From: Candidatus Magnetomicrobium cryptolimnococcus
GTDB taxonomy: Bacteria; Nitrospirota; Thermodesulfovibrionia; Thermodesulfovibrionales; Magnetobacteriaceae
Direction of reading: 5' to 3'
DNA: 64,000 nt
NCBI GenBank assembly: GCA_018606805.1
Contig: JAGYWI010000001.1
Location: 1 to 64,000 of the forward strand
Of this stretch, positions 3,005 through 45,619 are shown piece after piece; the first letter of the stretch is position 1; each line of letters begins with the position of its first letter. Under the pieces are notes generated by a model. That model was not told where the DNA came from and searched no databases. It saw only the letters and a program-made list of their open reading frames with translations. The translations under genes were made by a program, and so were the position numbers.

Positions 3005-3090
3005 CCATTTTTGCCTTATAAAATAACACTTTTTATCAAAGAGCGTTTAACCATTGAAATTATTATAAACTATAATCTCTTGATTTGCAA
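3005..3090 (-). promoter_or_regulatory. CRISPR leader with array promoter
   Basis: AT-rich leader between the first repeat (ending 3004) and the cas2 terminator. On the minus strand it has a -35 box TTGCAA at 3085-3090, a 17-nt spacer and a perfect -10 box TATAAT at 3062-3067. The predicted start is near 3055, about 50 nt before the first repeat, so the array would have its own promoter. The call rests on motif match and spacing only. Confidence 0.75.
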
Positions 3091-3144
3091 GAAAAATTTT
3101 TGCGTCGGTCTCCAGTGTTTTTTACGCTATTGGAGGGCGACGCA
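3091..3144 (-). terminator. Terminator after cas2
   Basis: A stem-loop starts directly after the cas2 stop codon. TGCGTCG (3101-3107) pairs with CGACGCA (3138-3144), and CTCCA (3110-3114) pairs with TGGAG (3131-3135). On the minus strand it is followed by AAAATTTTT. It would separate the cas mRNA from the array transcript. The T-tract is displaced by about four A residues, so efficiency is uncertain. Confidence 0.65.
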
Positions 3145-3417
3145 TTATAATATTAGTTGCTCCCCTCCCTTTTGTATACCTATTACCTCCTTATCACTAT
3201 ACATCAATGTTCTAAATTTATATATTATCACCGAGTCCTCTTCTTCCTTTACTTTCTTTTTAAGCTCCACTTTCAATTTTTCCAGTTGGCTGTTTGTTAT
3301 TTCTCCTTCAAATACAGAGTTTTGTATCCAATTCAAATACTTTCTACATATTTTTAAAATCTTTGTTACACGTTCCTGTTTTATATCATATACCAATATC
3401 ACATACACTTTTATCAC
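3145..3417 (-). CDS. cas2: CRISPR adaptation endonuclease Cas2
   Basis: 90 aa, normal Cas2 length. The start (IKVYVILVYDI) is the Cas2 beta-1 strand with the conserved Asp, followed by a ferredoxin-like fold ending in a strand containing VIIYKF. Cas2 forms the scaffold of the Cas1-Cas2 integrase, which inserts new spacers at the leader-proximal repeat. It is the last gene of the operon. Its ATG overlaps the cas1 stop by 4 nt (ATGA), a sign of translational coupling, and a hairpin terminator follows immediately. Position and family assignment are mutually consistent. Confidence 0.95.
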   Translation of the reverse strand: MIKVYVILVYDIKQERVTKILKICRKYLNWIQNSVFEGEITNSQLEKLKVELKKKVKEEEDSVIIYKFRTLMYSDKEVIGIQKGGEQLIL

Positions 3418-4409
3418 CAGCGACCTATATAAGGCTCATAATCCTGAGTTCCCATTAAATGTTTTTCTATTTTATATAGTTCAAGTCTTATTAGTCGCCT
3501 ATACGATACGTTTTTGTCTAAATCGCTATGGTGTATCGTTGTTTTCAGTCTATTATCCATTTCTGACACAAATATTTCCTTCCCTTTTTGATTTAAAATT
3601 ATACCATCCAACTTTTCCTCAAAGTGTTGAGCCTTCAGCATTCCTTTATTAAGAAGTGTAAAGATTACTCTATCTACGATTATCGGTTTAAATATCTCAG
3701 CAACATCAAGATTTAAGCTAAATCGCCGAAAGTTTGTTGTATGCAGGTAACCAATTCTTGGATCAAGGTGTGTTTTATAAATCTCGCTTAAGGCTGTTGT
3801 ATAAATAATCGAGTTGCCAAAGCTTATCAGGGCATTTAATCTATTTTGGGGCGGTCGCTTACTTCTTTCTTCAAACATAAAATCCTTATTTTTTATAATT
3901 ATATCAAAGGTTTTGTAATATTGCTCTCTTATATTGCCTTCTATTGCCATAAGTTCTTCTGTAGTTTGACAGGTATTTATTTTGTCTTTTAATATATCTA
4001 TGCTTGATATGTTTTCACTTAGAGTGCTTCCCCTATTTTCATAATAGCTAATAACCTTATTTATATTAGCAACAGCGCCATTTACAAATTTTTGTGCCAA
4101 AGCTAACCTTTGCTTTTCGTTTAAATAAAACTCCGCCTGCTTCAAAGTCATATACCCGGAGTTTAAGTGCTCCCTCGGATAATATGAACCTACGTAATAA
4201 TCATAATGATTAAAAAAGTGCATTATTATTTCTGCCTTTGTTAAAAACTCCAAAAACCGTTTATTGACAGTTACCTCACCAAAAATCATTATCTCAGCAG
4301 TAGTTTCAACTGGAATGAATTTTCTCCCGCCCTCTTCTGTTTCATAGTATAACGTATTATCTTTTCTTTTTAGTTCACCATCGGAAAAAATGTATATCGT
4401 ATTTTTCAT
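3414..4409 (-). CDS. cas1: CRISPR integrase Cas1
   Basis: 331 aa from the ATG at 4409; an upstream GTG at 4418 is possible. I chose the ATG because it forms an ATGA overlap with the cas4 stop. It has the N-terminal beta domain (NTIYIFSDGEL) and the C-terminal helical catalytic domain. Visible motifs are NALISFGNSIIYT, LDPRIGYLHT and RRFSLNLDVAEIFKP, which carry the family's metal-binding Glu/His/Asp positions. The type I-B length is normal. Cas1 is the catalytic subunit that joins protospacers to the repeat. Neighbours cas4 and cas2 complete the adaptation module, so the locus looks able to acquire spacers. Confidence 0.97.
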   Translation of the reverse strand: MKNTIYIFSDGELKRKDNTLYYETEEGGRKFIPVETTAEIMIFGEVTVNKRFLEFLTKAEIIMHFFNHYDYYVGSYYPREHLNSGYMTLKQAEFYLNEKQRLALAQKFVNGAVANINKVISYYENRGSTLSENISSIDILKDKINTCQTTEELMAIEGNIREQYYKTFDIIIKNKDFMFEERSKRPPQNRLNALISFGNSIIYTTALSEIYKTHLDPRIGYLHTTNFRRFSLNLDVAEIFKPIIVDRVIFTLLNKGMLKAQHFEEKLDGIILNQKGKEIFVSEMDNRLKTTIHHSDLDKNVSYRRLIRLELYKIEKHLMGTQDYEPYIGRW

Positions 4410-4906
4410 GACCAGCACAGCTCCCCATATCCACAGTTTTTACAGTAATGTATGTGCTGTCTTTCTGGCACCTTCTCGTTTGTTGCTATGGATATTATTT
4501 CTGCCTCCACCACCTCTAACTCTTTTTCTAACTCCTGCGTAAGTGTAACCTCTATGGTTTTCTTCTCCTTTGGAAATAAAAGCTCACCTTTAACAACTAC
4601 CCCACTTTCTTTAAGAGTCTTTAAATAAAAGGCTAGCTGCATGGTTGCGCTTTTTACAAATGTGGAGCTTTTCTTAACCTCTCCAATCACTATTTCACCG
4701 TCTCTTTTTCTAAGCACATCTATGGCAATATTGCCTATCATTATTTCTTTTTTCTCACGTTTATAGCTTTCTTCCGATATAAGCCGCCCTATTTCAATAA
4801 AAGGATTATCTTGCTGTGGCTCAAGTTTGCGTGCCATAAACCACACCTCGCGCTTACATATGAAATAGTACCAAATAAGTGTACCATTTATACTTAAATC
4901 TACCAA
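4406..4906 (-). CDS. cas4: CRISPR-associated exonuclease Cas4
   Basis: 166 aa, RecB-like nuclease of the PD-(D/E)XK family. The N-terminal GTLIWYYFICKREVW holds the first cluster cysteine. The C-terminal HYCKNCGYGELCWS gives three more, the usual four ligands of the Cas4 [4Fe-4S] cluster. The core IGEVKKSS is the catalytic E-x-K element. Cas4 trims prespacers and helps select PAM-bearing ends in the correct orientation. It overlaps cas3 by 7 nt and cas1 by 4 nt. The first Met is favoured because the conserved GTLIWYY block lies just after it. Confidence 0.95.
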   Translation of the reverse strand: MVDLSINGTLIWYYFICKREVWFMARKLEPQQDNPFIEIGRLISEESYKREKKEIMIGNIAIDVLRKRDGEIVIGEVKKSSTFVKSATMQLAFYLKTLKESGVVVKGELLFPKEKKTIEVTLTQELEKELEVVEAEIISIATNEKVPERQHIHYCKNCGYGELCWS

Positions 4907-7230
4907 ATAGCAAGTCCCCCTTCTGTTTTAAAGCCTGTCGTTCCGTCATAGTATTCGCTCAGTTGGCTACCACCTATATACATTATATCATTAACCTTTG
5001 GAGGCTGATTTTTTGATGCCTTCAATATAGAGACTGATATTACAAATTTCGCAAACTCACCCTTTATACGAGCAAATTCCTCTTTTCTTTTCCACCTATC
5101 GCTTATTTCATAAAGCTTGGTATACGTTTGCCACACTTCCTGCGCCTCTTCATTTATCTCTACAAAAATGTCTACCTTTTCATACTTGTCCTCTATTAAC
5201 TTAAACTTAGCAATAGACTTATCCCCATCATCATAATTAAGCTCATAGGTTGCTTTAAGGATTTCTTGCTCCTGATACACCTTTCTTTCTAAACTATCAT
5301 AATATTTTTGCAATATTTTCAAACAATCCTTCTCGCAAAACTCCTCTTTTGGTATACTATCTTTGGTAGCCTTCATTAAAACTATATCATAAATAAAGCT
5401 AGAATAGCGCTTACCTTTATCATCTACCATATTAACAATAATGACTTTACCTATTTTTTGAGAGTCAGCGTTTCTATTGCACCTACCAGCGCTTTGCATT
5501 ATGCAATCAAAAGGCGCTAGGTCCCTTATCACAACGTCAAGGTCAATATCCACACCTGCTTCTACAAGCTGCGTTGAAATAACCAGTTTCTGTCCATCGT
5601 ATGTCTTGATTTCCTCTATGCGCTTGATGCGTTCATAGGGAGTTACGTGTGTAGAAAGGAAAAAAGTCTTTATATCTACCACTAACGATAACTTGCTAAA
5701 AACATTGTCGGCAGCCCCAATCGTATTCAACACAACAAGCACGGATTTATCTTCATCAATTTCGGCTTGGATTATTTCAATAATCCTATCTATCCCCTGT
5801 GGGTTTTCTATATCTGGTACAACCATATATCTATCCATCGCTTCAAAATACTTGTAAGGTGAGTTTACAAGCTCTGTACAATTCTTTGCTATCATCGGTC
5901 TTGTCGCTGTTGATAACACTATATAGCAATGAAGCCTTTCAGAAAGGTACTTAAGGGCTTCTTCTATTAAGCGCCAATACCTAACCGGTATTGCCTGCAC
6001 CTCATCAAGTATTATGATGCTGCCAGCAATCTTATTAAATTTCTTAAGCATTTTATTTTGGTAGCCTATTACAGTATGAAAAAACTGAATAAACGTTGTA
6101 ACTATAATCTCGCTGTTCCACCCCTCAATAAGCAGTTTTTCTTCACCAATTTCGTATTCATTTTCACTATCGCTACCGGTCTTATAAGAAATTTCACTTA
6201 AATGATGGTGCTTTAATAGTTGGTCAGTTGTAGGAGGCGTATTATCACCCCAAAGCCGCTCAATAACATTGTAATTTTGCTCAATAATGCTTAAAAAAGG
6301 TAGACAATATATTATTCTTGGCTTTGGTAAAGGCATTGTTGCTCTCAAGGCTTCGGCGAAGGCAAATGTAGTAAGGGTTTTACCAAGCCCTGTTGGCACA
6401 TTTAAAGATAATATAGAAGGGGCATTAATAGTGCAGACCTTAGATAGCACTTCCTCGTATACCTCATTACGCAGTTTATTAATGTCTGATGTAGGTATAT
6501 CAAGCCCTTTTTGCTGCCTATAATGTCCCACTAAATTTGACGGAATCTGCCCCCTTTCTGGCATACCGCCGGTCTTTAACCCAGCATCGCTTTTATCTGC
6601 ATCTATTAGTATAGAAAACGCTAAATTTAATCTAAAAAAATTATCCATATTATTAGGATTTATTAGCTGGCCCTTTGCACGTTTCAATTTCTTTAAATCA
6701 TCAAACGCTCCCTCTACCCCTTTTTTTAACTCATCAACAGTAACGTTTATTTCTAAAGCCAAAAGTAATTTAGCAAGGTAATTATCATTAATACAATCCA
6801 ATTGTTGATTAACTGCATCAATATCTTCTTTGTCAAAGATTAAGCTGTCTTTTAATTCTTTTAAATTCCCATGGTGATGTTTTACACAGAAAAATCCACA
6901 AAATGCAGCAAACGGCTCTTCTGGATAGAGTTTTCTTATCACCCAATAAGTAGCCAATGCAGATAGTAAAGAATGATTCGTACGCATGTCATTTTTGAGC
7001 CTTGGTTTATTTGCAGGACTTGCCGACAAATAGTTTTGAAAAAACGTTGTTGCCTTACCTAAATCGTGCAGTTTAGCGGCAATAATAATAGCATCTTTCA
7101 TATTATTACCAGGTAAAAATACTGGCACAAGCTTAGAGGCAATCTCACTTACTGCCAAGAGGTGCTCAACTAAAGGTTTATCGGGGTGGGAAAAAATATT
7201 ACTAAGGCATGAATAAGAGGTTTCGTTCAT
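4900..7230 (-). CDS. cas3: CRISPR effector nuclease-helicase Cas3 (HD + DExD/H)
   Basis: 776 aa, full-length type I Cas3. The N-terminal HD nuclease shows H23, the H55-D56 pair in KLHDLGK and a later KHHHGN. The helicase shows a Walker A motif (NVPTGLGKT, about residue 275), ILDEVQAI, STATRP, and the motif V-VI region VISTQLVEAGVDIDLD and QSAGRCNRN. It is recruited by Cascade to the displaced strand, then unwinds and degrades target DNA. The HD and helicase domains are in one chain with no missing motif. It starts 29 nt inside the end of cas5 and overlaps cas4 by 7 nt. Confidence 0.96.
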   Translation of the reverse strand: MNETSYSCLSNIFSHPDKPLVEHLLAVSEIASKLVPVFLPGNNMKDAIIIAAKLHDLGKATTFFQNYLSASPANKPRLKNDMRTNHSLLSALATYWVIRKLYPEEPFAAFCGFFCVKHHHGNLKELKDSLIFDKEDIDAVNQQLDCINDNYLAKLLLALEINVTVDELKKGVEGAFDDLKKLKRAKGQLINPNNMDNFFRLNLAFSILIDADKSDAGLKTGGMPERGQIPSNLVGHYRQQKGLDIPTSDINKLRNEVYEEVLSKVCTINAPSILSLNVPTGLGKTLTTFAFAEALRATMPLPKPRIIYCLPFLSIIEQNYNVIERLWGDNTPPTTDQLLKHHHLSEISYKTGSDSENEYEIGEEKLLIEGWNSEIIVTTFIQFFHTVIGYQNKMLKKFNKIAGSIIILDEVQAIPVRYWRLIEEALKYLSERLHCYIVLSTATRPMIAKNCTELVNSPYKYFEAMDRYMVVPDIENPQGIDRIIEIIQAEIDEDKSVLVVLNTIGAADNVFSKLSLVVDIKTFFLSTHVTPYERIKRIEEIKTYDGQKLVISTQLVEAGVDIDLDVVIRDLAPFDCIMQSAGRCNRNADSQKIGKVIIVNMVDDKGKRYSSFIYDIVLMKATKDSIPKEEFCEKDCLKILQKYYDSLERKVYQEQEILKATYELNYDDGDKSIAKFKLIEDKYEKVDIFVEINEEAQEVWQTYTKLYEISDRWKRKEEFARIKGEFAKFVISVSILKASKNQPPKVNDIMYIGGSQLSEYYDGTTGFKTEGGLAIW

Positions 7231-7933
7231 CGCTTGTCCTCACATATTTGGAAGGTCTACATTTTATTGTTTGACAGTTTACTTCAAAGATGACATCTTC
7301 ATACTGAGTAACTTGCCTGTTTTCAGCCATTTTTATAGGGATACGCTCTTTTGAATATTTCTTGCCAGACTCAAAGGCTATACCATTTGGTTTATCAGAA
7401 AGGGCAAACACCGGCAAAACCGAGTCAATCTCTATATAATCGTCCCCGGCGGATAAGACCTCACCCTCAAGCTCACCGTCAAAACAAAAACTGGCAATAC
7501 ACTCAGATATACCAAGACAGGGCGTGTATATACACCTTTGTACTTTAACAAGATTAGCAAACTCTGTTAAAAAGCTCTCATCCTCAGCAGTTATAAAAAG
7601 CGTATAACATGGGTTCTTTAGATATTCAAGCCTAATTTGCGTACGTTCTTTTATTAGGTTGAAGCCCGGTCCTTTTGCATATTTTGTCTCTATCCAATTA
7701 ACACCCATCCGAAATTTTTTAACCCTATTTTTCAATACTACAGCAGCCTTAAGGTTAGCAGAATTTAGACGATTAATATAACTATCTTTAGAAAAACCTG
7801 CCAAAGCGCCAACAATGCCGTACACAGCAGTAATCGGCGGTATTGAAAACGTAATCGGGGATGCTGTTGTATAGAATCTCTTAAAGTGCCCATAATCAGC
7901 CCATATATCAATACTAACTATGCGTATTTTCAT
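7202..7933 (-). CDS. cas5: Cascade subunit Cas5 (type I-B)
   Basis: 243 aa RAMP protein. The N-terminus (MKIRIVSIDIWADYGHFKRF) and the following PITFSIPPITAVYGIVGA are typical of the Cas5h/Cas5b family, in which the first strand and a glycine-rich turn form the ferredoxin-like fold. Cas5 caps the crRNA 5' handle and contacts Cas7 and Cas8. The gene overlaps cas7 by 20 nt and cas3 by 29 nt, so translation is probably coupled. No frame damage is seen. Confidence 0.93.
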   Translation of the reverse strand: MKIRIVSIDIWADYGHFKRFYTTASPITFSIPPITAVYGIVGALAGFSKDSYINRLNSANLKAAVVLKNRVKKFRMGVNWIETKYAKGPGFNLIKERTQIRLEYLKNPCYTLFITAEDESFLTEFANLVKVQRCIYTPCLGISECIASFCFDGELEGEVLSAGDDYIEIDSVLPVFALSDKPNGIAFESGKKYSKERIPIKMAENRQVTQYEDVIFEVNCQTIKCRPSKYVRTSDERNLLFMP

Positions 7934-8918
7934 TGACCTTAAACTCTATTTGTTCTAATGTAACGTCCTCTCCACCTTCAAACCAGCCTTTAAGCTCAAC
8001 CCTATCATCTTTAATTTGCCTAACCGTTTTGATGCGCCCTTTTTCACGCAACAATCTCCCTTTAAGAGTAGACATATCAAGCGCTACCTGTGAAACATCC
8101 CTTATAGCCTCATCACGCAGTTGAGGGTCTTTTTTTTCAAGTTTTACAAGCTTATCAACCTCACCTATGTGGAAATTTTCACCTTCTTTATATATTATTT
8201 CAAGTAATAGGCGCGGCATCTGTCCTACCTTTGAACGTGAGATAAGGTTTTTTGTCCCCTGCCACATCGCTTCAATCAATAGTTCAATGTCGCCGTCAGT
8301 CAGTTTTGTATGAATAGCAGCATTTTCATTCACAACACCATAAAAACAAATAAGTGAGTATGGCAGCAAATATTCCTCTCTAAAGGTTGCCTGTGATTTA
8401 CCTTCACCTGATGCAAAAGCACCAGTACCTTTAATCAGCATAGTATCCACACTATGTAAAGATACACCCATTTTAAACTGTACAGGGCCTGTATGGGTAA
8501 TTGAGCCTTTATGTGTGTTGTCCTTTTCGATTGGCAAGGTTACACCAAACATTCTAATATCAATACATTCATTTAACACATTACCGTTAATAATATTTAT
8601 CATATCATTTAAAGATTTTATATCTTTTTTAGCAAGAGTTTTCTTATTTTCACCATATAAAAAATCTTCAGCCCTCTTTTTGGCATCTTGAATTTTGCCG
8701 TCATCGTCTCCGATTTCACGTACAAAGATTTCCTTCCTTTTGAAATTATAAAAATAGTCCCTAACTGTCCTTTTAAGCCTAACATCAGTAACCAAGTTCT
8801 TGCCGCTTTCCTCGTCAATCCTTGGCTTATTGTCATCCACAGGGTCGCCGTTTGGATTTGCATTAGACACATCATAAATAAATAATAACTCCCGACGGTT
8901 TTTAATTGTTTCATTCAT
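7914..8918 (-). CDS. cas7: Cascade backbone subunit Cas7 (Csh2 type)
   Basis: 334 aa from ATG 8918; the open frame extends to 8972, but a GAGGG ribosome site lies 8 nt before 8918 and the family N-terminus begins here. The motif FIYDVSNANPNGDPVDDNKPR is the Csh2/DevR signature. Later GAFASGEGKSQATFREEYLLPYSL resembles the family core. Several copies of this RAMP protein wrap the crRNA spacer in Cascade. It overlaps the cas8b stop by 8 nt (ATGAATGA) and cas5 by 20 nt. Confidence 0.95.
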   Translation of the reverse strand: MNETIKNRRELLFIYDVSNANPNGDPVDDNKPRIDEESGKNLVTDVRLKRTVRDYFYNFKRKEIFVREIGDDDGKIQDAKKRAEDFLYGENKKTLAKKDIKSLNDMINIINGNVLNECIDIRMFGVTLPIEKDNTHKGSITHTGPVQFKMGVSLHSVDTMLIKGTGAFASGEGKSQATFREEYLLPYSLICFYGVVNENAAIHTKLTDGDIELLIEAMWQGTKNLISRSKVGQMPRLLLEIIYKEGENFHIGEVDKLVKLEKKDPQLRDEAIRDVSQVALDMSTLKGRLLREKGRIKTVRQIKDDRVELKGWFEGGEDVTLEQIEFKVNENTHS

Positions 8919-10710
8919 TATCTTTTCCCTCTTCTTGCCCTTTCTTATTTGATTTAAAAATAAAGCTACCATCTATAGCAGTTGCATCATACAAATTCAT
9001 ACCAAGTACAAAGTAGTAGTTAATTTCATCAACAGACATATGCCAATCCTTCCCTGCATTGAGAAAATAAAACGATATAATTGATTCCAATTGTTTATAG
9101 TAATTCTTCCCATACTCTTCAAGTTTATTTATTATTTTCGGTAAAAGACCGCATATATCATCTTCTTTCATCTTTAATCCTTTAAGTTGCTTCCTAAATG
9201 GAGTAGAGCTTCTATCTCCACCTTGAATCTGCAAAAGTAACTGAGTCAAAACCCCCATCAAAAACACAGCACGCATTGAATAACTACTAAAGGCATCTGA
9301 AAATGAATTAAAAAATCCATCTATTTTTTCATTTAATTCTAAAGCACTGGGCATAACTCTCTTATCCATTTTAACCTGTTTTCCTCCATTAAAATTTAAA
9401 AGACCAAAATGATTAAAAAATAAAAGACAAACAAAAGACTGTAGAGCAGAGATTTTTATATAGTTATCATTAACAAATCTATCTCTAATATATTCAATAA
9501 ACTTACTAATAACAAAATCATAATTTAATGGTATCTTTTTAAATATCTGTTCAGTAATATTTAAAAACTCTTTTATAGAATTAAAAAAAACACGCAATAC
9601 ATAAAAATTAAACAAAATATCTTTAGTATCTTTTTTTGAAAAAACTATATTTTTAAATATTGAATAATCTTCTGCCATAGATTTGGCGTTAAACATTTCC
9701 ATTAATCTACTTGGATATATGTCTTCTATTAAAAGATTGATTGCAAAACGACTGTTTGATTTTTCATAAAATAGAAAGGTGAATACAAAACTATCATTAC
9801 AGTCTTTTATAATATATAATATATCATCCTCATCACTTAATAGTCGCTTTCTATGTTTTTCATCAATAGCGATTTTTTTTGTACGAAAATCGTTATAAAT
9901 TGTTAACACACCTGTTAGTGCATCTATATTATTAGTTATAGAGCGTGGAATGAGATAGTAGCTAAGTTTGGCAAAACTAAATGCCCCAAGCGTGTCTTCA
10001 AGATACTGCCTTCCCTCATCAATCAATAAAACACACTCTATACATAATGGAAAATTACGCCATCCCTGTTTATCGTCAAAACCACCTGCAACATATCCCG
10101 GTTTATCTAAAGTATAAAACGTATAAGGGCTAGCGTTACCAAACACCTCCTCCCTTTTTCCACATAATGAGCACACACCATCTTTAGTCTTTACTTTCCC
10201 ATACTTGCCCTTAACTCCTTCTATCAAAATATCTTGCATTACATTAAATTCATTCAAGTATTTACCATCAATTAATAAAGTAATTAAAAATGTCTCTTTA
10301 GAATAACTATTGAGCTCTTCTGTTATTTGATTAACAATTGTATTCATATTTTGCACAAAACTATTACCTATCTGTTGTATAGTTACATTGCCAAGCATAC
10401 CTTGTCTACCTTTAAACCAAGGAATAAACCTATTGTCAATAGTTTTTTGTACATTATCCGTTAATTTAGCACTGGGGGTAAAATTTGGTCCATTAGGCGC
10501 CTTTCTTCTGTATAAATACTTTATATAATTCCCCTTCATATCCTCAACATCTACACCATCATACCGCACCTCCCCACTATCTGATTTAAACTTAATAAGG
10601 ATTACTTTATCAACGTTAGGGTCTTGCACCATTATCTCAAGTTCATTAGCAGTGCTCCTTCCCTCACTCTTTAAACTATACAAACCAAGCTCTCGCAGTG
10701 CCTCTATCAT
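8911..10710 (-). CDS. cas8b: Cascade large subunit Cas8b (Csh1 type)
   Basis: 599 aa, usual for Csh1/TM1802-type large subunits. A zinc-finger pair is visible: CSLCGKREEVF (about residue 181) and FPLCIEC (about residue 225). The rest is mostly alpha-helical and very AT-rich. The large subunit recognises the PAM and positions target DNA for Cas3. The ATG directly follows the cas6 stop (TAAATG) with GGGAG upstream. The family is divergent. The assignment rests on the zinc finger, the length and the slot between cas6 and cas7. Confidence 0.92.
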   Translation of the reverse strand: MIEALRELGLYSLKSEGRSTANELEIMVQDPNVDKVILIKFKSDSGEVRYDGVDVEDMKGNYIKYLYRRKAPNGPNFTPSAKLTDNVQKTIDNRFIPWFKGRQGMLGNVTIQQIGNSFVQNMNTIVNQITEELNSYSKETFLITLLIDGKYLNEFNVMQDILIEGVKGKYGKVKTKDGVCSLCGKREEVFGNASPYTFYTLDKPGYVAGGFDDKQGWRNFPLCIECVLLIDEGRQYLEDTLGAFSFAKLSYYLIPRSITNNIDALTGVLTIYNDFRTKKIAIDEKHRKRLLSDEDDILYIIKDCNDSFVFTFLFYEKSNSRFAINLLIEDIYPSRLMEMFNAKSMAEDYSIFKNIVFSKKDTKDILFNFYVLRVFFNSIKEFLNITEQIFKKIPLNYDFVISKFIEYIRDRFVNDNYIKISALQSFVCLLFFNHFGLLNFNGGKQVKMDKRVMPSALELNEKIDGFFNSFSDAFSSYSMRAVFLMGVLTQLLLQIQGGDRSSTPFRKQLKGLKMKEDDICGLLPKIINKLEEYGKNYYKQLESIISFYFLNAGKDWHMSVDEINYYFVLGMNLYDATAIDGSFIFKSNKKGQEEGKDNE

Positions 10711-11466
10711 TTAATCTCCCATAAACCTCTTATTACCGCACAGTTCAAAGCACCCAAACCCTTGAGAGTTCTTACTACCAATCCCAGCATCATATGCAAG
10801 CCCAATTAATTCCCTATCCCCCTTTAACCTATACTTTCCCATCCATGCCTTTGTAACAAACCCCTTGTACTTGACTACCTTTTCATGATTTTTTGATACA
10901 TTCACAGGCTCTATTTCAAACCGTGAGTAATCTGGGTCCCTATGATAATATGCAATATACTTCTTAATTATATTATCTTGTATCTGCTTGGTAAACTCTT
11001 TTTCAAATGGACTATAATAATACGTTTTACTTATACCTTCATAATTTTTAAATGTACTATACACAGTAACTGGTGAAACCATGTAAACGCTTACCTCTGA
11101 TAACATGTCTGGTTTACTGTATACATCTACCGTATCCACATACAAAGTATTCGAACCTAACATTACAGTTCTTTTTTTCAAAACATTATCCGAAAAACTT
11201 TGCAGTATCGGCTCAACCGGCGACGACACAGTTAAATAACAAGGCGTTGCCATGTACATAGATTCGTTAACAATTTTATACTTGCCAACAAGCCTCGAAA
11301 ACGTAAATAGCTTAAAAACCCTCTTTTCATATAAAAAGCCCTTATTGTGTATAAAATCACTTACAGAACAGTCTAAATTGCCATATATAAACCCCTGAAT
11401 CTGATAATTATAGTCTATTGGCAATACAACTATCTTTTTTGAATCAAAAGTAAATGTTATTCTCAT
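10711..11466 (-). CDS. cas6: crRNA-processing endoribonuclease Cas6
   Basis: 251 aa. Tandem ferredoxin-like RAMP with the C-terminal glycine-rich loop GIGSKNSQGFGCFEL that defines Cas6. The N-terminus (MRITFTFDSKKIVVLPIDYNY) and a following YLFTFS-like strand (FKLFTFSRL) also fit. It cuts the pre-crRNA within each repeat to leave the ATTGAAAC handle seen in the array. First gene of the operon, preceded by a plausible promoter at 11504-11532 and an AGGA site. The catalytic His cannot be fixed by eye. Confidence 0.93.
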   Translation of the reverse strand: MRITFTFDSKKIVVLPIDYNYQIQGFIYGNLDCSVSDFIHNKGFLYEKRVFKLFTFSRLVGKYKIVNESMYMATPCYLTVSSPVEPILQSFSDNVLKKRTVMLGSNTLYVDTVDVYSKPDMLSEVSVYMVSPVTVYSTFKNYEGISKTYYYSPFEKEFTKQIQDNIIKKYIAYYHRDPDYSRFEIEPVNVSKNHEKVVKYKGFVTKAWMGKYRLKGDRELIGLAYDAGIGSKNSQGFGCFELCGNKRFMGD

Positions 11467-23163: not shown

Positions 23164-26100
23164 ATGGTAGACAACAAGCTAAGGTTTGCAAAAACAAGTA
23201 TATGTGTTTTAATAGTATTCATACTATCGGTAACTGCTATAGAGGCATGGGCAACCGATCAGGTTTATACCTATTCATATGAGTTTGGAGCTTCGGGCAA
23301 CTCTGACGGCTTTTTCAATTATCCAAGGCGGTTACTTATTGACTCTAGCAACAACATACATGTGCTGGATGGCACCGGTAGAATACAGGTGTTTGACCTA
23401 AATGGTACATATATAGCCACGTGGGGTAAGGGGGGCGCTAATGATGCAATACTGTACTCACCCTTAAACATGGTTGAGGATGCCATTGGTATGTTTTACG
23501 TTACAGATAGCTATAAGGTTAAAAAATATAACGCCCAAGGTATTTATATTGACAAATGGGGGTCTCAAGGTATAAACCTAGGACAATTTGAAATAGCATG
23601 GGGTATTGCCATTGACTCACAGGGTTATATATATGTTTCTGATTCAACTAACTTACGTATGCAAAAGTTTAGTGCTTCTGGCAATTATCTATCTCAGTGG
23701 GATGGCTCCCAGTATTCAGGCGGCAAGTTTACTAATCTTGAAGACTTAGCATTTGATAGTTATGATTATTTATATATAGAAGACGGCGATAGTATACAAA
23801 AATATACTACGTATGGCGACTTTATAAAAAAATGGGGTTCTACCGGCTCAGGCGAGGGACAGTTCCAAAGCATCGGACAAATCACTATGGATGATAATAA
23901 TTACCTGTGGGTAGCTGATGAAATAAATAATAATATACAAAAATTTGACACTGAAGGTAATTTTATAGCAAATATTGGAGGTACGAGCGGTCTTGGAGAG
24001 GGACAATTTAGAGGATCCCTCGGTGTTGAAATAGATACCGAAGGCAACATATATGTAGCTGATGCCGGTAATAACCGTGTACAAGTGTTTTCACCGACAA
24101 TACCAACCCCTCTACCAACACCACCTCCAACGCCAACCCCTACCCCCACACCTATTACCCGCCCTTATGCCTATCTTACACAGTGGGGCAGTGCTGGCTC
24201 TAACGACGGACAGTTTAACCACCCAGACGGTCTTGCTATAGACTCCACTGGCTATATCTACGTTGTTGACACTGGCAATAATCGCATTCAAAAATTTGAT
24301 TCAGCCGGTAATTTTATAAGCAAATGGGGCTCACAAGGCAAAGACGATGGGCAGTTCCTAAACCCATTTGGCATTACCATTGACTCAAGCAACTTAATTT
24401 ACGTAACTGATACTGGCAATAACCGAATCCAAAAGTTTACACCAACCGGCGTATTCATATCACAATGGGGTGGATACGGCACAGACACCTCTCAATTTGC
24501 ACAACCGGGGGATGCCGCCGTGGATTCTTACGGCAATATTTATATAGCAGATACATTTAATAACCGTATACAGGTGTTTACCTCTACCGGTACTTTTATC
24601 AGAAGCTTTGGTTACAAAGGCTCTGGCGATGGACAGTTTTGGCAACCCCAAGGCATAGACGTAGACCCGGAAGGACGTGTCTATGTGGCTGATACAGCCA
24701 ATAGCCGCATAGAAGCACTAAATACTAGCGGCACGTATATTGCGGCATGGAGCAGCTCCGGCGCCACTAACGGCGCTATGTCTTGGCCATACAGCGTAAC
24801 CATAGCAGGCGCTAATGATGTCTACGTAGCTGATACACTTAATCACCGCATCCAACGATACGACAGAAACGGTAGCTTTGTTGCCTCGTGGGGTACTCAG
24901 GGCTCCGGAGACTATCAACTGTATAATCCACGGAGTGTTGTTGTTGATGCCAGCGGCAAAATCTACGTAGCCGACACATACAACAATAGGATTGTCGTTT
25001 ATGATAAAAATACAGCAGCACCAGCAATTACATCATACACACTTACAGTTAACCCAACCGGCTCTGGCTCTGGTAAGGTTATAAGCTCCCCTACAGGTAT
25101 CGAATGCGGCGATGATTGCTCCCAAAGCTATGATATAGGAACTACCGTAACACTGACGGCAACTGCCGACTTAGGCTCTACATTTAACGATTGGGCAGGT
25201 GCTAATTGTAGCGGTAACACCTTGTGTACTGTTACTATAGCTGAAGATACCACAGTAGAGGCTAATTTTTTCGGTAGTAAACCAGTACAAACCTACACGG
25301 TGTCTGTCTCAAAAACCGGCAATGGCACTGGCGCCATTACAAGCTCACCATCAGGAATTTCCTGCGGGGACATTTGCTCACGCTCCTTTGCAGCTGGAAA
25401 TATCGTTACTTTGTCAGCCACCCCGGATTTTAATTCAGCATTTAATGGTTGGAGCGGTAGCGGTTGCTCCGGCTCTGGCAACTGCTCGCTTGTTTTAAAC
25501 GCCTCACTAAGCGTTATTGCTGACTTTAAACCTGCCGACTATGTACCTCCTGTTTTGCAACCAAGCTTCGTTGGTGCATTTAATAGCGGAGTAGAATTAC
25601 ATTATAGTGTTACTGGCCTTGATATACTCAATCAGGTTTGGTACACCATGGACTTAAATAACTGGCGTAAAATCTCAGGCGCCCTAAACCATATGTTTAC
25701 AGCAGATATTGACGGCAATGGTGAAGATGAAATACTCGGTTTAACATCAGATGGCCATATATATTATTCAACTAACTTGTACGATTGGAACTACGTAGAC
25801 GGAGTCTTAGCACAAATGGCAGCCGCAAACCTCGATGGCGCCGGTAACCTTGACCTTGTTGGCCTATCCATCGATGGAAATATATGGTATACCGTAGACC
25901 TTTCTACATGGCAGCATATTCAGGGTGCTCTGTCTTTCATAGTACCAGCTGACTTAAATGGTGATAGGAAATTTGATATTGCAGGCTTAAGCCCCTCCGG
26001 TGAATTATTCTATACCACAGATTTAGGAACTACATGGATTGGCACTTCCAAGATATTCAAATCACTAAGCGTTGGCGATCTTAATAGAGACACCATAGCA

Positions 26101-26442
26101 GATTTTATCGGCATAGATACAGCAAACCAAATATCCTACTCAATAGATAAATCCACATGGAATCAGCTAACAGGCGTCTTTGCCCAAATAACTATCGGGG
26201 ATATAAACGATGACGGCAATGATGATATTATTGCGTTAGACCCAATAGGACAAGTATTCTACACATCAAATCTGTCTACTTGGGTACAAATACCAGGTAC
26301 ATTTTTACAAATAGCAGCCGGTGATATTGAGCACGACGGCGACGATGAGCTATTTGGTCTTACAAGTGGCGGGTTTATATGGTATACAAAAAACTTATCA
26401 ATATGGACAAATATACCGGGCTCTCTTAAAACTTTACAATAA
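23164..26442 (+). CDS. Large secreted NHL/propeller repeat protein
   Basis: 1092 aa. Signal peptide, probably cut after EAWA near residue 31. Two blocks of NHL beta-propeller repeats follow: about residues 34-310 and 330-620, with many copies of GQF, YVADT and NNRIQKF. A threonine-proline linker near 315-330 joins them. Next come two Ig/InlB-like repeats with paired cysteines (GIECGDDC, GISCGDIC). The C-terminal region has about seven repeats with WYT-DL--W and calcium-type DxDGDG-like loops. No C-terminal sorting signal is seen. Likely a secreted or surface-bound scaffold, adhesin or carbohydrate-binding protein. Substrate unknown. Confidence 0.85.
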   Translation: MVDNKLRFAKTSICVLIVFILSVTAIEAWATDQVYTYSYEFGASGNSDGFFNYPRRLLIDSSNNIHVLDGTGRIQVFDLNGTYIATWGKGGANDAILYSPLNMVEDAIGMFYVTDSYKVKKYNAQGIYIDKWGSQGINLGQFEIAWGIAIDSQGYIYVSDSTNLRMQKFSASGNYLSQWDGSQYSGGKFTNLEDLAFDSYDYLYIEDGDSIQKYTTYGDFIKKWGSTGSGEGQFQSIGQITMDDNNYLWVADEINNNIQKFDTEGNFIANIGGTSGLGEGQFRGSLGVEIDTEGNIYVADAGNNRVQVFSPTIPTPLPTPPPTPTPTPTPITRPYAYLTQWGSAGSNDGQFNHPDGLAIDSTGYIYVVDTGNNRIQKFDSAGNFISKWGSQGKDDGQFLNPFGITIDSSNLIYVTDTGNNRIQKFTPTGVFISQWGGYGTDTSQFAQPGDAAVDSYGNIYIADTFNNRIQVFTSTGTFIRSFGYKGSGDGQFWQPQGIDVDPEGRVYVADTANSRIEALNTSGTYIAAWSSSGATNGAMSWPYSVTIAGANDVYVADTLNHRIQRYDRNGSFVASWGTQGSGDYQLYNPRSVVVDASGKIYVADTYNNRIVVYDKNTAAPAITSYTLTVNPTGSGSGKVISSPTGIECGDDCSQSYDIGTTVTLTATADLGSTFNDWAGANCSGNTLCTVTIAEDTTVEANFFGSKPVQTYTVSVSKTGNGTGAITSSPSGISCGDICSRSFAAGNIVTLSATPDFNSAFNGWSGSGCSGSGNCSLVLNASLSVIADFKPADYVPPVLQPSFVGAFNSGVELHYSVTGLDILNQVWYTMDLNNWRKISGALNHMFTADIDGNGEDEILGLTSDGHIYYSTNLYDWNYVDGVLAQMAAANLDGAGNLDLVGLSIDGNIWYTVDLSTWQHIQGALSFIVPADLNGDRKFDIAGLSPSGELFYTTDLGTTWIGTSKIFKSLSVGDLNRDTIADFIGIDTANQISYSIDKSTWNQLTGVFAQITIGDINDDGNDDIIALDPIGQVFYTSNLSTWVQIPGTFLQIAAGDIEHDGDDELFGLTSGGFIWYTKNLSIWTNIPGSLKTLQ

Positions 26443-26780: not shown

Positions 26781-28001
26781 TTAAAACAAAATAGAAAAAA
26801 TCAGTATAACACTAAGTATTATTAGTACTATAACAGTTGCCCACGCTATAACATTATATACTTTTGAGTTAGTATACTCACCCATCAACGATTGTTTATT
26901 TATTAATAATATAGCATAAATTAAAACAAACGGCAGCAGTATACCATTTATAAACGATGCTGTTACCATAAGAGAAACGAGGGGCATACCGGGTATGACA
27001 ACCATCAGAGCTGCAAAAAATATTGTTACCGTATATATCAACATAAACTGCGGTGCTTCTTTATATGTTTTACCTACTCCTGACTCCCACCCCATAGCCT
27101 CACACATATAATAAGAAGTCGCAAGCGGTACTATTATAGCACCAAGCAAAGAGGCATTTGCTAAACTTACAGTAAATATTAACGTTGCGTACTCACCAGC
27201 AAACGGCTTTAGCGCCATTGCTGCCTCAGCAGCTTCATTTATCCTTATACCATGTGGATAAAGCAATGTCCCGCAAGTTATCAAAATAAAATACCCTATC
27301 GCTATAGTTATAATGCTTCCGACAATAATCTCTATGCGTGAAATATGAAAGTCTTCTTTTCTTAATCCCTTTTCCACAACAGATGATTGTAAATAAAACT
27401 GCATCCATGGTGTTATCGTTGTGCCAATAACAGCTATACTTAACATTATGTATTCTGAATCTAATTTAACAACCGGCACTATCGTATCTTTTAAGACCAA
27501 TTGCCACTGAGGTTTCGCCATAAAACACGACACAGCATAACCTACATACACAAGGCAGGCAATTAAAAGCACCTTTTCAACAAATCTGTAATTGCCCTTA
27601 CTAATAAGCATCCACACCAAAATAGCTCCAAGTGGCACTACAGCGTATTTACTCATATTAAATATCTCAAGACTTGCCGCAAGCCCTGAAAAATTAGCAA
27701 CAGTCGTGCCAAGATTTGCTATAAATAGACAAAACAGCATAATGACTGCCGTCTTTACACCATAGTTTTCCCTAATAAGGTCGGATAATCCCTTGCCAGT
27801 GATAACTCCCATACGGGCGACCATCTCCTGCACAACAATTAGCGATATGGCCGTTGGAATCATAGTCCACATCAAGGCATAGCCGTACCGCGCGCCAGCT
27901 ACCGAGTATGTAGTTATGCCACTGGCGTCATTATCTATCATTGCCGAAATAAGACCAGGTCCAAGCAGCGACAAAATGATTAAAAGCCGTCTTAAACGCA
28001 T
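26781..28001 (-). CDS. Nramp-superfamily divalent-metal transporter, variant binding site
   Basis: 406 aa with about eleven membrane helices. The N-terminus (GPGLISAMIDNDASG) aligns with Nramp TM1. Canonical Nramps have DPGN there, but this has D23-N24-D25. In TM6 the usual MPH metal-binding motif is replaced by T195-I-T-P-W, so the methionine that favours Mn or Fe is missing. The gene is 6 nt after a cytoplasmic protein with MgtE-N and CBS domains, suggesting Mg2+ or another hard ion. Transport is inferred; the ion is not shown. It is not called MntH because of the altered site. Confidence 0.85.
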   Translation of the reverse strand: MRLRRLLIILSLLGPGLISAMIDNDASGITTYSVAGARYGYALMWTMIPTAISLIVVQEMVARMGVITGKGLSDLIRENYGVKTAVIMLFCLFIANLGTTVANFSGLAASLEIFNMSKYAVVPLGAILVWMLISKGNYRFVEKVLLIACLVYVGYAVSCFMAKPQWQLVLKDTIVPVVKLDSEYIMLSIAVIGTTITPWMQFYLQSSVVEKGLRKEDFHISRIEIIVGSIITIAIGYFILITCGTLLYPHGIRINEAAEAAMALKPFAGEYATLIFTVSLANASLLGAIIVPLATSYYMCEAMGWESGVGKTYKEAPQFMLIYTVTIFFAALMVVIPGMPLVSLMVTASFINGILLPFVLIYAILLINKQSLMGEYTNSKVYNVIAWATVIVLIILSVILIFSILF

Positions 28002-28007
28002 TATCGC

Positions 28008-29270
28008 CTAAATCCTCGTTCTCTTCCTTTTAGCCCTTGGCGGCAATATACGGTCTAACACATCATCCACTGTTACCATGCCAAGCATATAACCGTTATC
28101 ATCTACAACCGGAATCGCTACAAGATTATACTTGGATATTTTAGCAGCCACTATGTCCTCATCATCTTCCGGGTGCACACACTTATAATTTGTAATCATA
28201 ATATCAAAAAGATATTTATCTGGCGGCGACAGCAGTAGCTCCTTTAAGGAAAGCACTCCGGCAAGCCTTTCATCCTTGTCCTCCACATAAATATAGTAGA
28301 TAGTCTCAACCTCTGCGGCATCAACCTTAAAGCGTTCAAGCGCCTCACCTACTGTCATCGTGGCTCGATAGACAAGGTACTCATTTGTCATGATGCCACC
28401 TGCGGAATCCTCCTCATGACCAAGGAGCTCTTGTATGTTTTCAGCCTCCTCACGGTCAATTTGGTCAAATATCTCTTTAATCTTATTTTTAGGCAAATCC
28501 GGCAACACATCTGCTGCCTCATCCGGCGGCATCTCCTCTATTATGTCTGCCGCCTTGGCAGTTTCCATGCTTGACAATATTTCAACCTGTGTCTTTGGCT
28601 GCAATTCCGAAAGTGTCTCAGATGCTGTCTCAACATCTAAGGTACTGAAAAAATCTGCCGCCTCTTTTCTTGGCATAGAGTTAATCATCTCGGCTATATC
28701 TGCCGGGTGCATCTGTTTTAACATCTGTTGGGGCATTTTTAGTGTTATGGCCTTCAATCTAGGCTCTAACGGCTGAAGGTAATCCCAGCTTATCAAAGTA
28801 ACCGGCAGCGATAACTTAATAAATCGTAAAAACGATTCCGTTTTTTTCTCAATTCCAAGTCGTCTCAATATACCCCTTACACCAATGTCTATTGCCACAA
28901 ACACTGCACGGCTTAAATAGCCCTCTATTTTTATATCGTTTACACGCACAACCTTAGCACCATTTATATCCACCACCTGTTTGTCTAAAATATCACGCAC
29001 AGCTAATAAATCTGTTTCGTTAAAATCGTAAATGGCTAGTTGGTCTTTTTGCAGCGTTGTTGTAATTATCTTTCTATTGAATATGGGCAGACTTTTATAG
29101 TGCAATCTATAGAATTTTTTTTTATCTTCTATTAAAAGAGCTTCTATGCCCGGCAGAGTTTCATCTTTTATAACAACCACATCTTTTATGGTGCCAAAAA
29201 ACTCACCTTGCTGTCCGTAGACCGATTTATTTAAAATCTCGCTTATAAATATTTCGCCAATTAAAGGCAT
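28008..29270 (-). CDS. Soluble MgtE-N/CBS regulatory protein
   Basis: 420 aa, no membrane helix. The N-terminal region (about 1-180) looks like PRC-barrel-type modules (SVYGQQGEFFGTIKDVV). Residues about 190-290 are MgtE-N-like helical repeats (HPADIAEMINSM, EEMPPDEAADVLPDL), and about 300-415 form a CBS pair (MTNEYLVYRA, VDDNGYMLGMVTVDDVLDRI). It lacks the MgtE membrane domain. In MgtE these domains sense Mg2+ and gate the pore. Here it probably senses ion or nucleotide levels and controls the adjacent Nramp-like transporter, with which it forms one operon. Confidence 0.85.
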   Translation of the reverse strand: MPLIGEIFISEILNKSVYGQQGEFFGTIKDVVVIKDETLPGIEALLIEDKKKFYRLHYKSLPIFNRKIITTTLQKDQLAIYDFNETDLLAVRDILDKQVVDINGAKVVRVNDIKIEGYLSRAVFVAIDIGVRGILRRLGIEKKTESFLRFIKLSLPVTLISWDYLQPLEPRLKAITLKMPQQMLKQMHPADIAEMINSMPRKEAADFFSTLDVETASETLSELQPKTQVEILSSMETAKAADIIEEMPPDEAADVLPDLPKNKIKEIFDQIDREEAENIQELLGHEEDSAGGIMTNEYLVYRATMTVGEALERFKVDAAEVETIYYIYVEDKDERLAGVLSLKELLLSPPDKYLFDIMITNYKCVHPEDDEDIVAAKISKYNLVAIPVVDDNGYMLGMVTVDDVLDRILPPRAKRKRTRI

Positions 29271-29420
29271 TTTCTCATACGCATCTTCATATTATTAAAC
29301 AAGCTACTATGATAGCACATCTTTATTTAAACAATATTAAATTATAATTAAATTCTACTCTAACTCTTTTTATAGATAGTGCGAAGGCTTCACGCAAGAA
29401 GTTAAGGAAAAAGAGGCGTT

Positions 29421-29453
29421 GGAGAAAACCTTTTTCTCGAAAATGGTTTTCCC
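29421..29453 (-). repeat. Dispersed hairpin repeat near the response regulator 3' end
   Basis: GGAGAAAACC (29421-29430) faces GGTTTTCCC (29445-29453). It lies between genes at 29270 and 29512 and is a short relative of the GC-rich hairpin family. It follows the 3' end of the minus-strand gene at 29512. Confidence 0.5.
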
Positions 29454-29511
29454 TCGTTCCTTTATCTTTTTTATTTCTTTTTTTTATTTCTTTTCTTCTT
29501 CATTTTTCACT

Positions 29512-30435
29512 TTAACAAATAGCAACTCTATTTCGACCTTCGCCTTTTGCCTTATATAGAGCATCGTCAGCTTTTTTAATCATAATATCTTCTGTGATAC
29601 CATTATCACCGAAGGCAACGTTAATACCGATAGAAACCGTTAACACATCAGATATATTGCTTTTGGCATGTTCTATATTAAGCACTGCGATTTTTTTTCT
29701 GATGTTTTCAACAAAATTCAATGATTGTTGAACATCAAGCCCGACAAACAGTGCTCCAAACTCCTCGCCTCCCATACGAAACACATAGTCGCCCGGTCTT
29801 TTAAAATGCTGTTTTAATATTGTTGCTACCTGTTTTATTGCCTCATCACCTGCCTGATGGCCATAATTGTCGTTATATTGTTTAAAAAAGTCTATATCGA
29901 GCATCATAAAAGCAATATACCTTCTTTCTCTTTTAGCGCGTTCAAGCTCACGTTTAAAAAATATCTCCATAGAGCGCCTGTTATATAGACCAGTCAGAGG
30001 ATCGGTTAAGGACATTTCACGGTTTAGGTCGGTTTCTCTTTTCAGTTTTAAAGCTGACTTTACACGTGCTATGAACTCCACATCATTTATTGGTTTTCTT
30101 ATGTAGTCATTAGCGCCGGCATCAAAGCAGTTTTTTAGTGTTTCAGTGTCAACCTTTGCTGTTATCATTATAATTGGTATAGATTTAAGCCTATCATTTG
30201 ATTTAAATTCCTTACATGCCGTAATACCGTCAATTTCAGGCATCATGATATCCAGCAGTATAAGGTCTATGTTTTCCTCAACTAACACCTTGCGTGCCTC
30301 TTTAACGTTAAAGGCTTCCTTAATATTATAAAACCCCTCTTCCTCCAAAAAGGCCTTAGCCAGTTCTAGATTATCAGGTGTATCATCAACAATCAGTACC
30401 TGCATGGCTGCATAATCGTTATTTGGAGAGTTCAT
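29512..30435 (-). CDS. Response regulator diguanylate cyclase (REC-GGDEF)
   Basis: 307 aa from ATG 30435; the frame is open to 30474, but GAGGAAAG lies just before 30435 and the protein then starts MNSPNNDYAAMQV. REC domain with LIVDDTPDN, the phospho-acceptor LLLDIMMPEIDG, and a conserved Lys in YIRKP. The GGDEF domain has the active GGEEF motif with an RPGD I-site five residues upstream. Similar to PleD-like regulators. It overlaps the histidine-kinase stop by 17 nt, so it is probably controlled by that kinase. Confidence 0.93.
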   Translation of the reverse strand: MNSPNNDYAAMQVLIVDDTPDNLELAKAFLEEEGFYNIKEAFNVKEARKVLVEENIDLILLDIMMPEIDGITACKEFKSNDRLKSIPIIMITAKVDTETLKNCFDAGANDYIRKPINDVEFIARVKSALKLKRETDLNREMSLTDPLTGLYNRRSMEIFFKRELERAKRERRYIAFMMLDIDFFKQYNDNYGHQAGDEAIKQVATILKQHFKRPGDYVFRMGGEEFGALFVGLDVQQSLNFVENIRKKIAVLNIEHAKSNISDVLTVSIGINVAFGDNGITEDIMIKKADDALYKAKGEGRNRVAIC

Positions 30436-45274: not shown

Positions 45275-45619
45275 TGGTGGAGGCGGCGGGACTCGAACCC
45301 GCGTCCAGAAGCACTCCTCCCAAACCACTACATGTTTAGCCATCTTTTTTATCTTCGAATATAAACACGCCAAGTGGCAGGCTTGCCTATATTCTAGTCC
45401 CCTTAATACACCGATTGGCGGGACCACAATCGGCGGTTATCCCCTTTATGACGCTTACCCTAAATAGGAGATATCTTCAGGGAAGCGGCTGCTTAATTAA
45501 TTAAGCAGCAACTGCCAGTTCGTCGTTGGCGTTTGTACGTTTTACCGCGTTTTTACATGGCCACGGCGCCATGACATGCGTTTTGAGCCTCATAACCCCT
45601 GTCAAATCCATACGCCCCC
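45275..45619 (-). ncRNA. ssrA: Transfer-messenger RNA (tmRNA)
   Basis: About 345 nt. The 5' GGGGGCG pairs with the 3' CGCCTCC, and the RNA ends in encoded CCA. The T-arm GGTTCGAGTCC is present. The reading frame encodes a probable tag ANDELAVAA ending at TAA, followed by the palindromic TTAATTAATTAA hairpin. It rescues stalled ribosomes with SmpB. It starts 1 nt after the smpB stop codon, so it may be processed from an smpB-ssrA transcript. The resume codon is inferred from alignment with known tags. Confidence 0.95.

Follow-up and report, generated by a model that had tools for sequence, protein, structure and literature searches.

Two adjoining genes on the reverse strand of the analysed window, a stretch of 64,000 nucleotides from Candidatus Magnetomicrobium cryptolimnococcus, encode an Nramp-related transporter and a cytoplasmic protein built like the Mg2+ sensor of MgtE (Table 1). 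The pair is probably a Mg2+ uptake operon, in which an importer of the NRMT type is shut by a separate MgtE-like Mg2+ gauge. MgtE is a Mg2+ channel whose sensor gates the covalently linked pore. The reading of the pair is based on the membership of the transporter in the NRMT clade, the strict pairing of transporter and sensor across the phylum, and the replacement of the transporter, in several relatives, by an MgtE pore joined to the same sensor.

Table 1 Features of the transporter–sensor locus in the window.
Feature	Position	Strand	Basis
NRMT-type transporter (Nramp superfamily, LeuT fold), 406 aa	26781..28001	-	ORF; Pfam; EleNRMT match; model
TM6 site T194-T-I-T197-P-W199 (TxxT; W for the H of MntH)	27405..27422	-	Alignment
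TM1 site D25-A-S-G28 (DxxG)	27918..27929	-	Alignment with EleNRMT and MntH
Junction: TAG stop of the partner and 6 nt, then the transporter ATG, one frame	28002..28010	-	Sequence
Stand-alone cytoplasmic Mg2+-sensor-like partner, 420 aa	28008..29270	-	ORF; Pfam; Foldseek 2yvy
Polybasic tail, aa 409-420, LPPRAKRKRTRI, at the position of the acidic plug helix of MgtE	28011..28046	-	Alignment
CBS pair, about aa 290-408; D247 and D250 equivalents kept, D226 -> N	28047..28403	-	Pfam, alignment
MgtE_N, aa 187-288; equivalents of T. thermophilus E59, D91, D95	28407..28712	-	Pfam, alignment
PRC-barrel domain, aa 5-73	29052..29258	-	Pfam PRC 30.7 bits, 2 stretches

By its predicted fold, the signature of its metal site and its position in the tree, the transporter belongs to the NRMT (NrmT) clade. 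It scores 307 bits against Pfam Nramp, and among solved structures its sequence matches EleNRMT best (7qia, 381 bits), with an MntH from Bacteroides as the runner-up (10ky, 92 bits). The AlphaFold2 model (mean pLDDT 85.6, pTM 0.86) has the EleNRMT structures 7qia/7qji as its top Foldseek matches (TM 0.93, 44% identity). Alignment with MntH and with EleNRMT showed that the asparagine of TM1 is replaced by G28 and that, in TM6, the alanine is replaced by T194, the methionine by T197, and the histidine by W199. The aspartate D25 of the segment N-D-A-S-G aligns with that of the MntH motif DPGN, and this ligand is therefore kept. The preliminary description had read TM1 as D-N-D instead of DPGN, which was a misreading of the register, and had concluded that the transporter lacks the canonical metal ligands. 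The conclusion is right for the TM6 methionine, since the segment T-I-T-P-W indeed carries T-P-W in place of MPH, but it is too strong for the site as a whole because D25 is retained. A methionine at this position of TM6 is a soft ligand for transition metals. The site D25xxG28 / T194xxT197 / W199 matches the NRMT signature, which is given in the available excerpts of Ramanadane et al. 2022 (PMC8806188) as DxxG in TM1 and TxxA/T in TM6, with T224 and W229 as the TM6 equivalents in EleNRMT.

A tree of 39 transporters, calculated with a careful search and without CabNRMT, and to be read with a warning for the long branch of L020, has MntH on one side of a split with support of 100/99, and on the other the window protein together with EleNRMT and every relative that bears a sensor. 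The phylogeny that the preliminary description had called for thus places the transporter outside MntH. Its nearest neighbours are two relatives from the window's own family (100/98). The score of the transporter against NCBIfam MntH is 134 bits, with a cut-off of 430, and neither a DPGN / AxxM-H site of the MntH type in the alignment nor a place in the MntH clade of the tree was found. An NRMT from Acidobacteriota (L012:3992-5239) shares a poorly resolved NRMT subclade with the window protein in the 39-row tree, and its TM1 sequence DNDPNG looks midway between DPGN and DASG.

The partner gene encodes the sensing domains of MgtE without the channel. Pfam identified MgtE_N (100 bits), CBS (60 bits) and PRC (31 bits) in the partner, and no MgtE pore family, as the preliminary description had claimed; the PRC-barrel region at the N-terminus, recognized by Pfam and in the model, had been left unnamed there. 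The barrel is followed in the model by a second beta-rich segment at about residues 98-161. The model of the partner (mean pLDDT 80.7, pTM 0.45) is most similar to the Mg2+-bound cytosolic domain of MgtE (2yvy, TM 0.85 by target length). Since the N domain and the CBS pair are present and the pore and plug helix are absent, the protein would work like the sensor of MgtE without being an MgtE.

Residues of the Mg2+ sites of T. thermophilus MgtE, taken from the available part of PMC5882242, were transferred by alignment to 82 rows of stand-alone sensors, which include split and partial sequences, and were counted only where aligned. D95 is kept in all 78 rows and D91 in 72 of 78; of 77 rows, 74 keep D247 and 63 keep D250. 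In 74 of 80 rows, E59 is either conserved or replaced by D. D226, a residue of the Mg5 site, is replaced by N in the window's partner and in 66 of the 77 stand-alone rows. High Mg2+ causes the plug helices to close the MgtE pore, according to the accessible text of PMC8104411. At the plug position, the tails of stand-alone sensors have a net charge of at least +4 in 66 of 76 cases, typically with the sequence LPPxAKRKRRKV, and are not polybasic in the other 10. The same segment reaches +4 in none of four fused and nine MgtE rows, with mean net charges of -3 and -4, respectively. Judged from these alignments, the stand-alone sensor is a gauge of the MgtE type that has been retained while the plug was lost.

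The spacing of 6 nt between the two genes, which share a frame and are separated by a single TAG and two codons, is consistent with an operon. Among the matches listed, relatives from the window's family have TAG or TAA at the junction, which makes an ordinary stop with coupled translation likelier than readthrough. An 836-aa stop-free frame in the window was considered as an NRMT–sensor fusion and rejected, because the TAG stop separates the genes; an 890-aa stop-free frame in G111 was rejected because the sensor lies in another frame. The opposite strand beside the operon encodes a 1092-aa protein with an NHL beta-propeller and InlB-like repeats (23164-26442, +).

The genome of the window, 98.5% complete, encodes one Nramp, which is not of the MntH type, one MgtE_N and one CorA above cut-off, P-type ATPases that score below the MgtA cut-off, and two ZnuA-type binding proteins. 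The MgtE pore family (PF01769) had no match anywhere in this genome. The presence of CorA means that the NRMT is not the only likely Mg2+ importer. No M-box riboswitch was found upstream of the pair in the window, including a lax scan of positions 29200-29800, or at the gathering threshold in 20 related loci. Elsewhere, the window contains a CRISPR array of 43 repeats (195-11466) with Cas3 (4903-7230) and Cas_TM1802 (8914-10710), which we take to be of subtype I-B, and a tmRNA (45275-45619, 195 bits).

Transporters of the NRMT type are paired with the sensor throughout the phylum. A survey of 148 genomes yielded 75 Nramp matches, of which 70 were aligned and classed; five were set aside before counting, namely a broken copy (L038), a partial sequence (L093) and three weak matches (L094-L096). 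L038 is an NRMT broken by an in-frame TAG, and a sensor adjoins it. All 52 Nramps with the signature DxxG-TxxA/T have an adjoining sensor on the same strand, located upstream in 45 and downstream in six of the fetched loci, and upstream in the window itself. No sensor adjoins any of the 13 MntH-type Nramps with AxxM, and with 52/52 against 0/13 the arrangement is not due to chance. The sensor is likewise absent beside the three Nramps with DxxA-TxxA (L054-L056, 554-577 aa) and the single one with DxxA-AxxS (L085), as well as beside L086, which is cut at a contig end and was aligned without TM1. No sensor was found with the relatives carrying DxxG-TxxS (L015-L017, L019, L156). In a separate set of 12 NRMT-like loci, ten have an adjoining sensor. 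The contig of L009 starts at the locus and includes only the last part of the sensor, and L010 has no sensor beside its NRMT and a sensor relative elsewhere in the genome. In a second NRMT lineage of the phylum (L087-L092), the transporter is accompanied by a sensor of its own that lies downstream rather than upstream, and some genomes thus contain two matched pairs. L054-L056 have DNDAGA in TM1, TxxA in TM6 and a C-terminal extension, and two MntH-type Nramps of 627-628 aa (L021, L022) carry about 200 extra C-terminal residues.

The same PRC-MgtE_N-CBS sensor is fused to an MgtE pore in at least five genomes of the window's order (G144, G159, G160, G168 and G256); the fusion of G256 came from a wider survey that scored up to seven candidates per genome. 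The fusion of G159 is split over two contigs, and the other four are unsplit. In G144, an orthologue of the sensor (459 bits, residues 1-407) shares one frame of 609 aa with a complete pore of the MgtE type that follows it (98.6 bits against Pfam MgtE), and no Nramp was found in the genome. Most relatives in the order have the gene succession sensor, NRMT, mtnA, polyprenyl synthase and AMMECR1, and G144 has the sensor–pore fusion, mtnA, polyprenyl synthase and AMMECR1 (names read from the sequences). Each of the five fusions precedes mtnA, a position that the NRMT gene holds in most relatives from the order. The pair in the window itself is not adjacent to mtnA; its family has moved the sensor/NRMT pair away from this site. 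At the mtnA site of G134, from the window's family, the sensor is frameshifted and no NRMT adjoins it; the frameshift is possibly a sequencing error.

All 31 genomes of the family of G144 were searched, and the fusions of G159, G160 and G168 were found besides that of G144. A signature NRMT is present, adjoining the sensor, in all 21 genomes with a stand-alone sensor (one being frameshifted and one cut by a contig end). It is present in none of the four genomes with a fusion, which are 97% (G144), 92% (G159), 80% (G160) and 89% (G168) complete, and in none of the six with neither sensor nor fusion, two of which have an MntH-type Nramp. The genomes are related and not independent, and we therefore attach no probability to these counts. 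G256 belongs to another family, and its fusion is followed by a 61-aa frame and then by mtnA. The last 53 residues of this frame match the C-terminus of NRMT, best that of its congeners (97, 96 and 93 bits), which indicates that an NRMT stood at this site earlier.

The exchange argues, as far as gene content and order can, that the substrate of the pathway is Mg2+ and that the sensor gates it. The replacement of the importer by an unrelated channel on the same sensor suggests that the sensor controls magnesium entry. The proposal of a Mg2+ importer with a separate sensor, made in the preliminary description, is supported by this replacement, by the position of the transporter outside MntH and by its greater similarity to EleNRMT. 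The literature on Nramp or NRMT with MgtE, CBS, PRC-barrel or fusions, as covered in excerpts and with most subscription journals outside the scope, contained no report of the exchange, which appears to be new, whereas the pair itself is of a kind already described.

The fused pores of the four genomes in the family of G144 share 63-82% identity among themselves and no more than 43% with the other MgtEs sampled, and the G256 pore is 77% identical to that of G144. Such a single pore lineage would fit a history in which the fusions are the ancestral full-length PRC-MgtE and the stand-alone sensor is an MgtE that lost its pore when an NRMT was recruited beside it. We regard this order of events as quite improbable, since the fused sensors are not a single clade and are nested inside the trees of stand-alone sensors; a larger sensor tree of 85 rows was calculated in a quick version. 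The sensors of G144 (fused) and of its congener G167 (stand-alone) are sisters (100/99 and 100/98), and grouping of the fusions was rejected with p-AU of 0.019 for three fusions and 0.037 for four, in post hoc tests of moderate strength for which the second bootstrap had not settled. Furthermore, the remnant in G256 shows that the NRMT was there first. A single pore lineage thus appears to have become attached to two or more lineages of the sensor. Artefacts of assembly could be suspected, as all the genomes are drafts of 40-310 contigs, but such an origin is extremely improbable for fusions that occur in five genomes from four genera and two families with the same downstream synteny, are open through the junction, are 63-69% identical to the G144 copy over the part available, and are split only in G159.

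Based on the sequences and models of the two proteins and on the natural exchange, a mechanism of regulated Mg2+ uptake can be proposed. The NRMT would take up Mg2+, probably partly hydrated, without proton coupling, as was shown for EleNRMT. The partner may be the cytoplasmic Mg2+ gauge of MgtE acting as a subunit in its own right. At high cytosolic Mg2+, the ion would bind between the N and CBS domains and compact the sensor, which would then hold the transporter shut from the cytosolic side. We infer that the sensor inhibits rather than activates the transporter. The conserved polybasic tail, located in place of the plug helix, may dock on the transporter or on the inner face of the membrane.

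The transporter might instead import mainly Mn2+, or both Mn2+ and Mg2+, with a sensor that answers Mn2+ or serves another purpose. The NrmT of A. capsulatum, whose gene has such a partner, rescued Mn2+ uptake and not high-affinity Mg2+ uptake in the available sections of PMC4072509, EleNRMT transports both Mn2+ and Mg2+ (PMC8806188, excerpts), and the lack of an MntH-type Nramp in the window's genome would leave room for such a role. However, the pore that replaces the NRMT on the same sensor belongs to a Mg2+ channel, the TM6 methionine is absent, the two ZnuA-type proteins could serve the uptake of Mn2+ or Zn2+, and MntH and NRMT coexist in other genomes (e.g. G113 and G124), so that we find a primary role in Mn2+ uptake rather unlikely. 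Uptake of Mg2+ could also proceed with a partner that does not gate it and is a Mg2+-dependent scaffold, chaperone or stability factor, as its PRC barrel and CBS domains might allow, or acts on another target. Two NrmTs of C. acetobutylicum transported without a partner, and co-expression of the partner did not improve the rescue of Mg2+ uptake by the A. capsulatum NrmT, according to the same sections of PMC4072509. A sensor relative in Chloroflexota (L110) lies apart from NRMT, just before a K+-channel-like gene with the motif TLGIGD (label read from the sequence). A non-gating partner is nevertheless unlikely in our view, because five genomes link the sensor covalently, through a normal acidic plug helix, to the MgtE pore, the pairing with NRMT is strict, and the sensor of G134 is broken where the transporter has been lost.

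If the sensor gates Mg2+ entry, it may be a transferable gate: a single PRC-MgtE_N-CBS module would control a carrier of the LeuT fold, NRMT, in trans and the MgtE channel in cis, and on at least two occasions the channel would have taken over the site of the carrier, with a change only in the coupling element, from polybasic tail to acidic plug helix. We consider the arguments for and against this extension to be evenly balanced. If it is correct, one gauge can be wired to different Mg2+ pathways, and a module that works in both settings would be one of few ion-sensing units that regulate a carrier as well as a channel. The replacement of NRMT by the MgtE pore, together with the remnant in G256, is direct evidence from evolution for a role of the sensor in Mg2+ entry. 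What the MgtE-like neighbour of NrmT does was still an open question in 2014, as far as the available sections of PMC4072509 go, and the exchange makes the question directly testable, since it supplies matched pairs for experiments, with the same sensor and different transporters.

The pair can be compared with four known systems. With MntH and the classical Nramps, the window's transporter shares the superfamily, the fold and the TM1 aspartate; it differs in the DPGN/MPH site, in the clade and in the sensor neighbour. With MgtE of T. thermophilus (2yvy/2zy9), the partner shares the N domain, the CBS pair and most Mg2+-site residues, but it lacks the membrane pore and the plug helix, has N for D226, and adds the PRC region and the polybasic tail. 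The PRC-MgtE_N-CBS-MgtE fusions contain a sensor orthologous to the window's partner in the slot before mtnA that sensor and NRMT fill in most relatives of the order, and in these the MgtE pore and acidic plug helix take the place of the separate NRMT. With the NRMT/NrmT systems (Ca_c0685 of C. acetobutylicum, EleNRMT), the window's pair shares the fold, the DxxG-TxxA/T signature, the clade and the MgtE-N-like neighbour. EleNRMT likewise has W for H in TM6, with A where the window's protein has T, and a subset of NRMTs has an M-box upstream, a non-defining feature that the window lacks. Shin et al. 2014 demonstrated Mg2+ transport by NrmT, noted that most members neighbour an MgtE-N-like gene, and proposed feedback regulation (PMC4072509, available sections); the pair in the window is a further member of this known kind.
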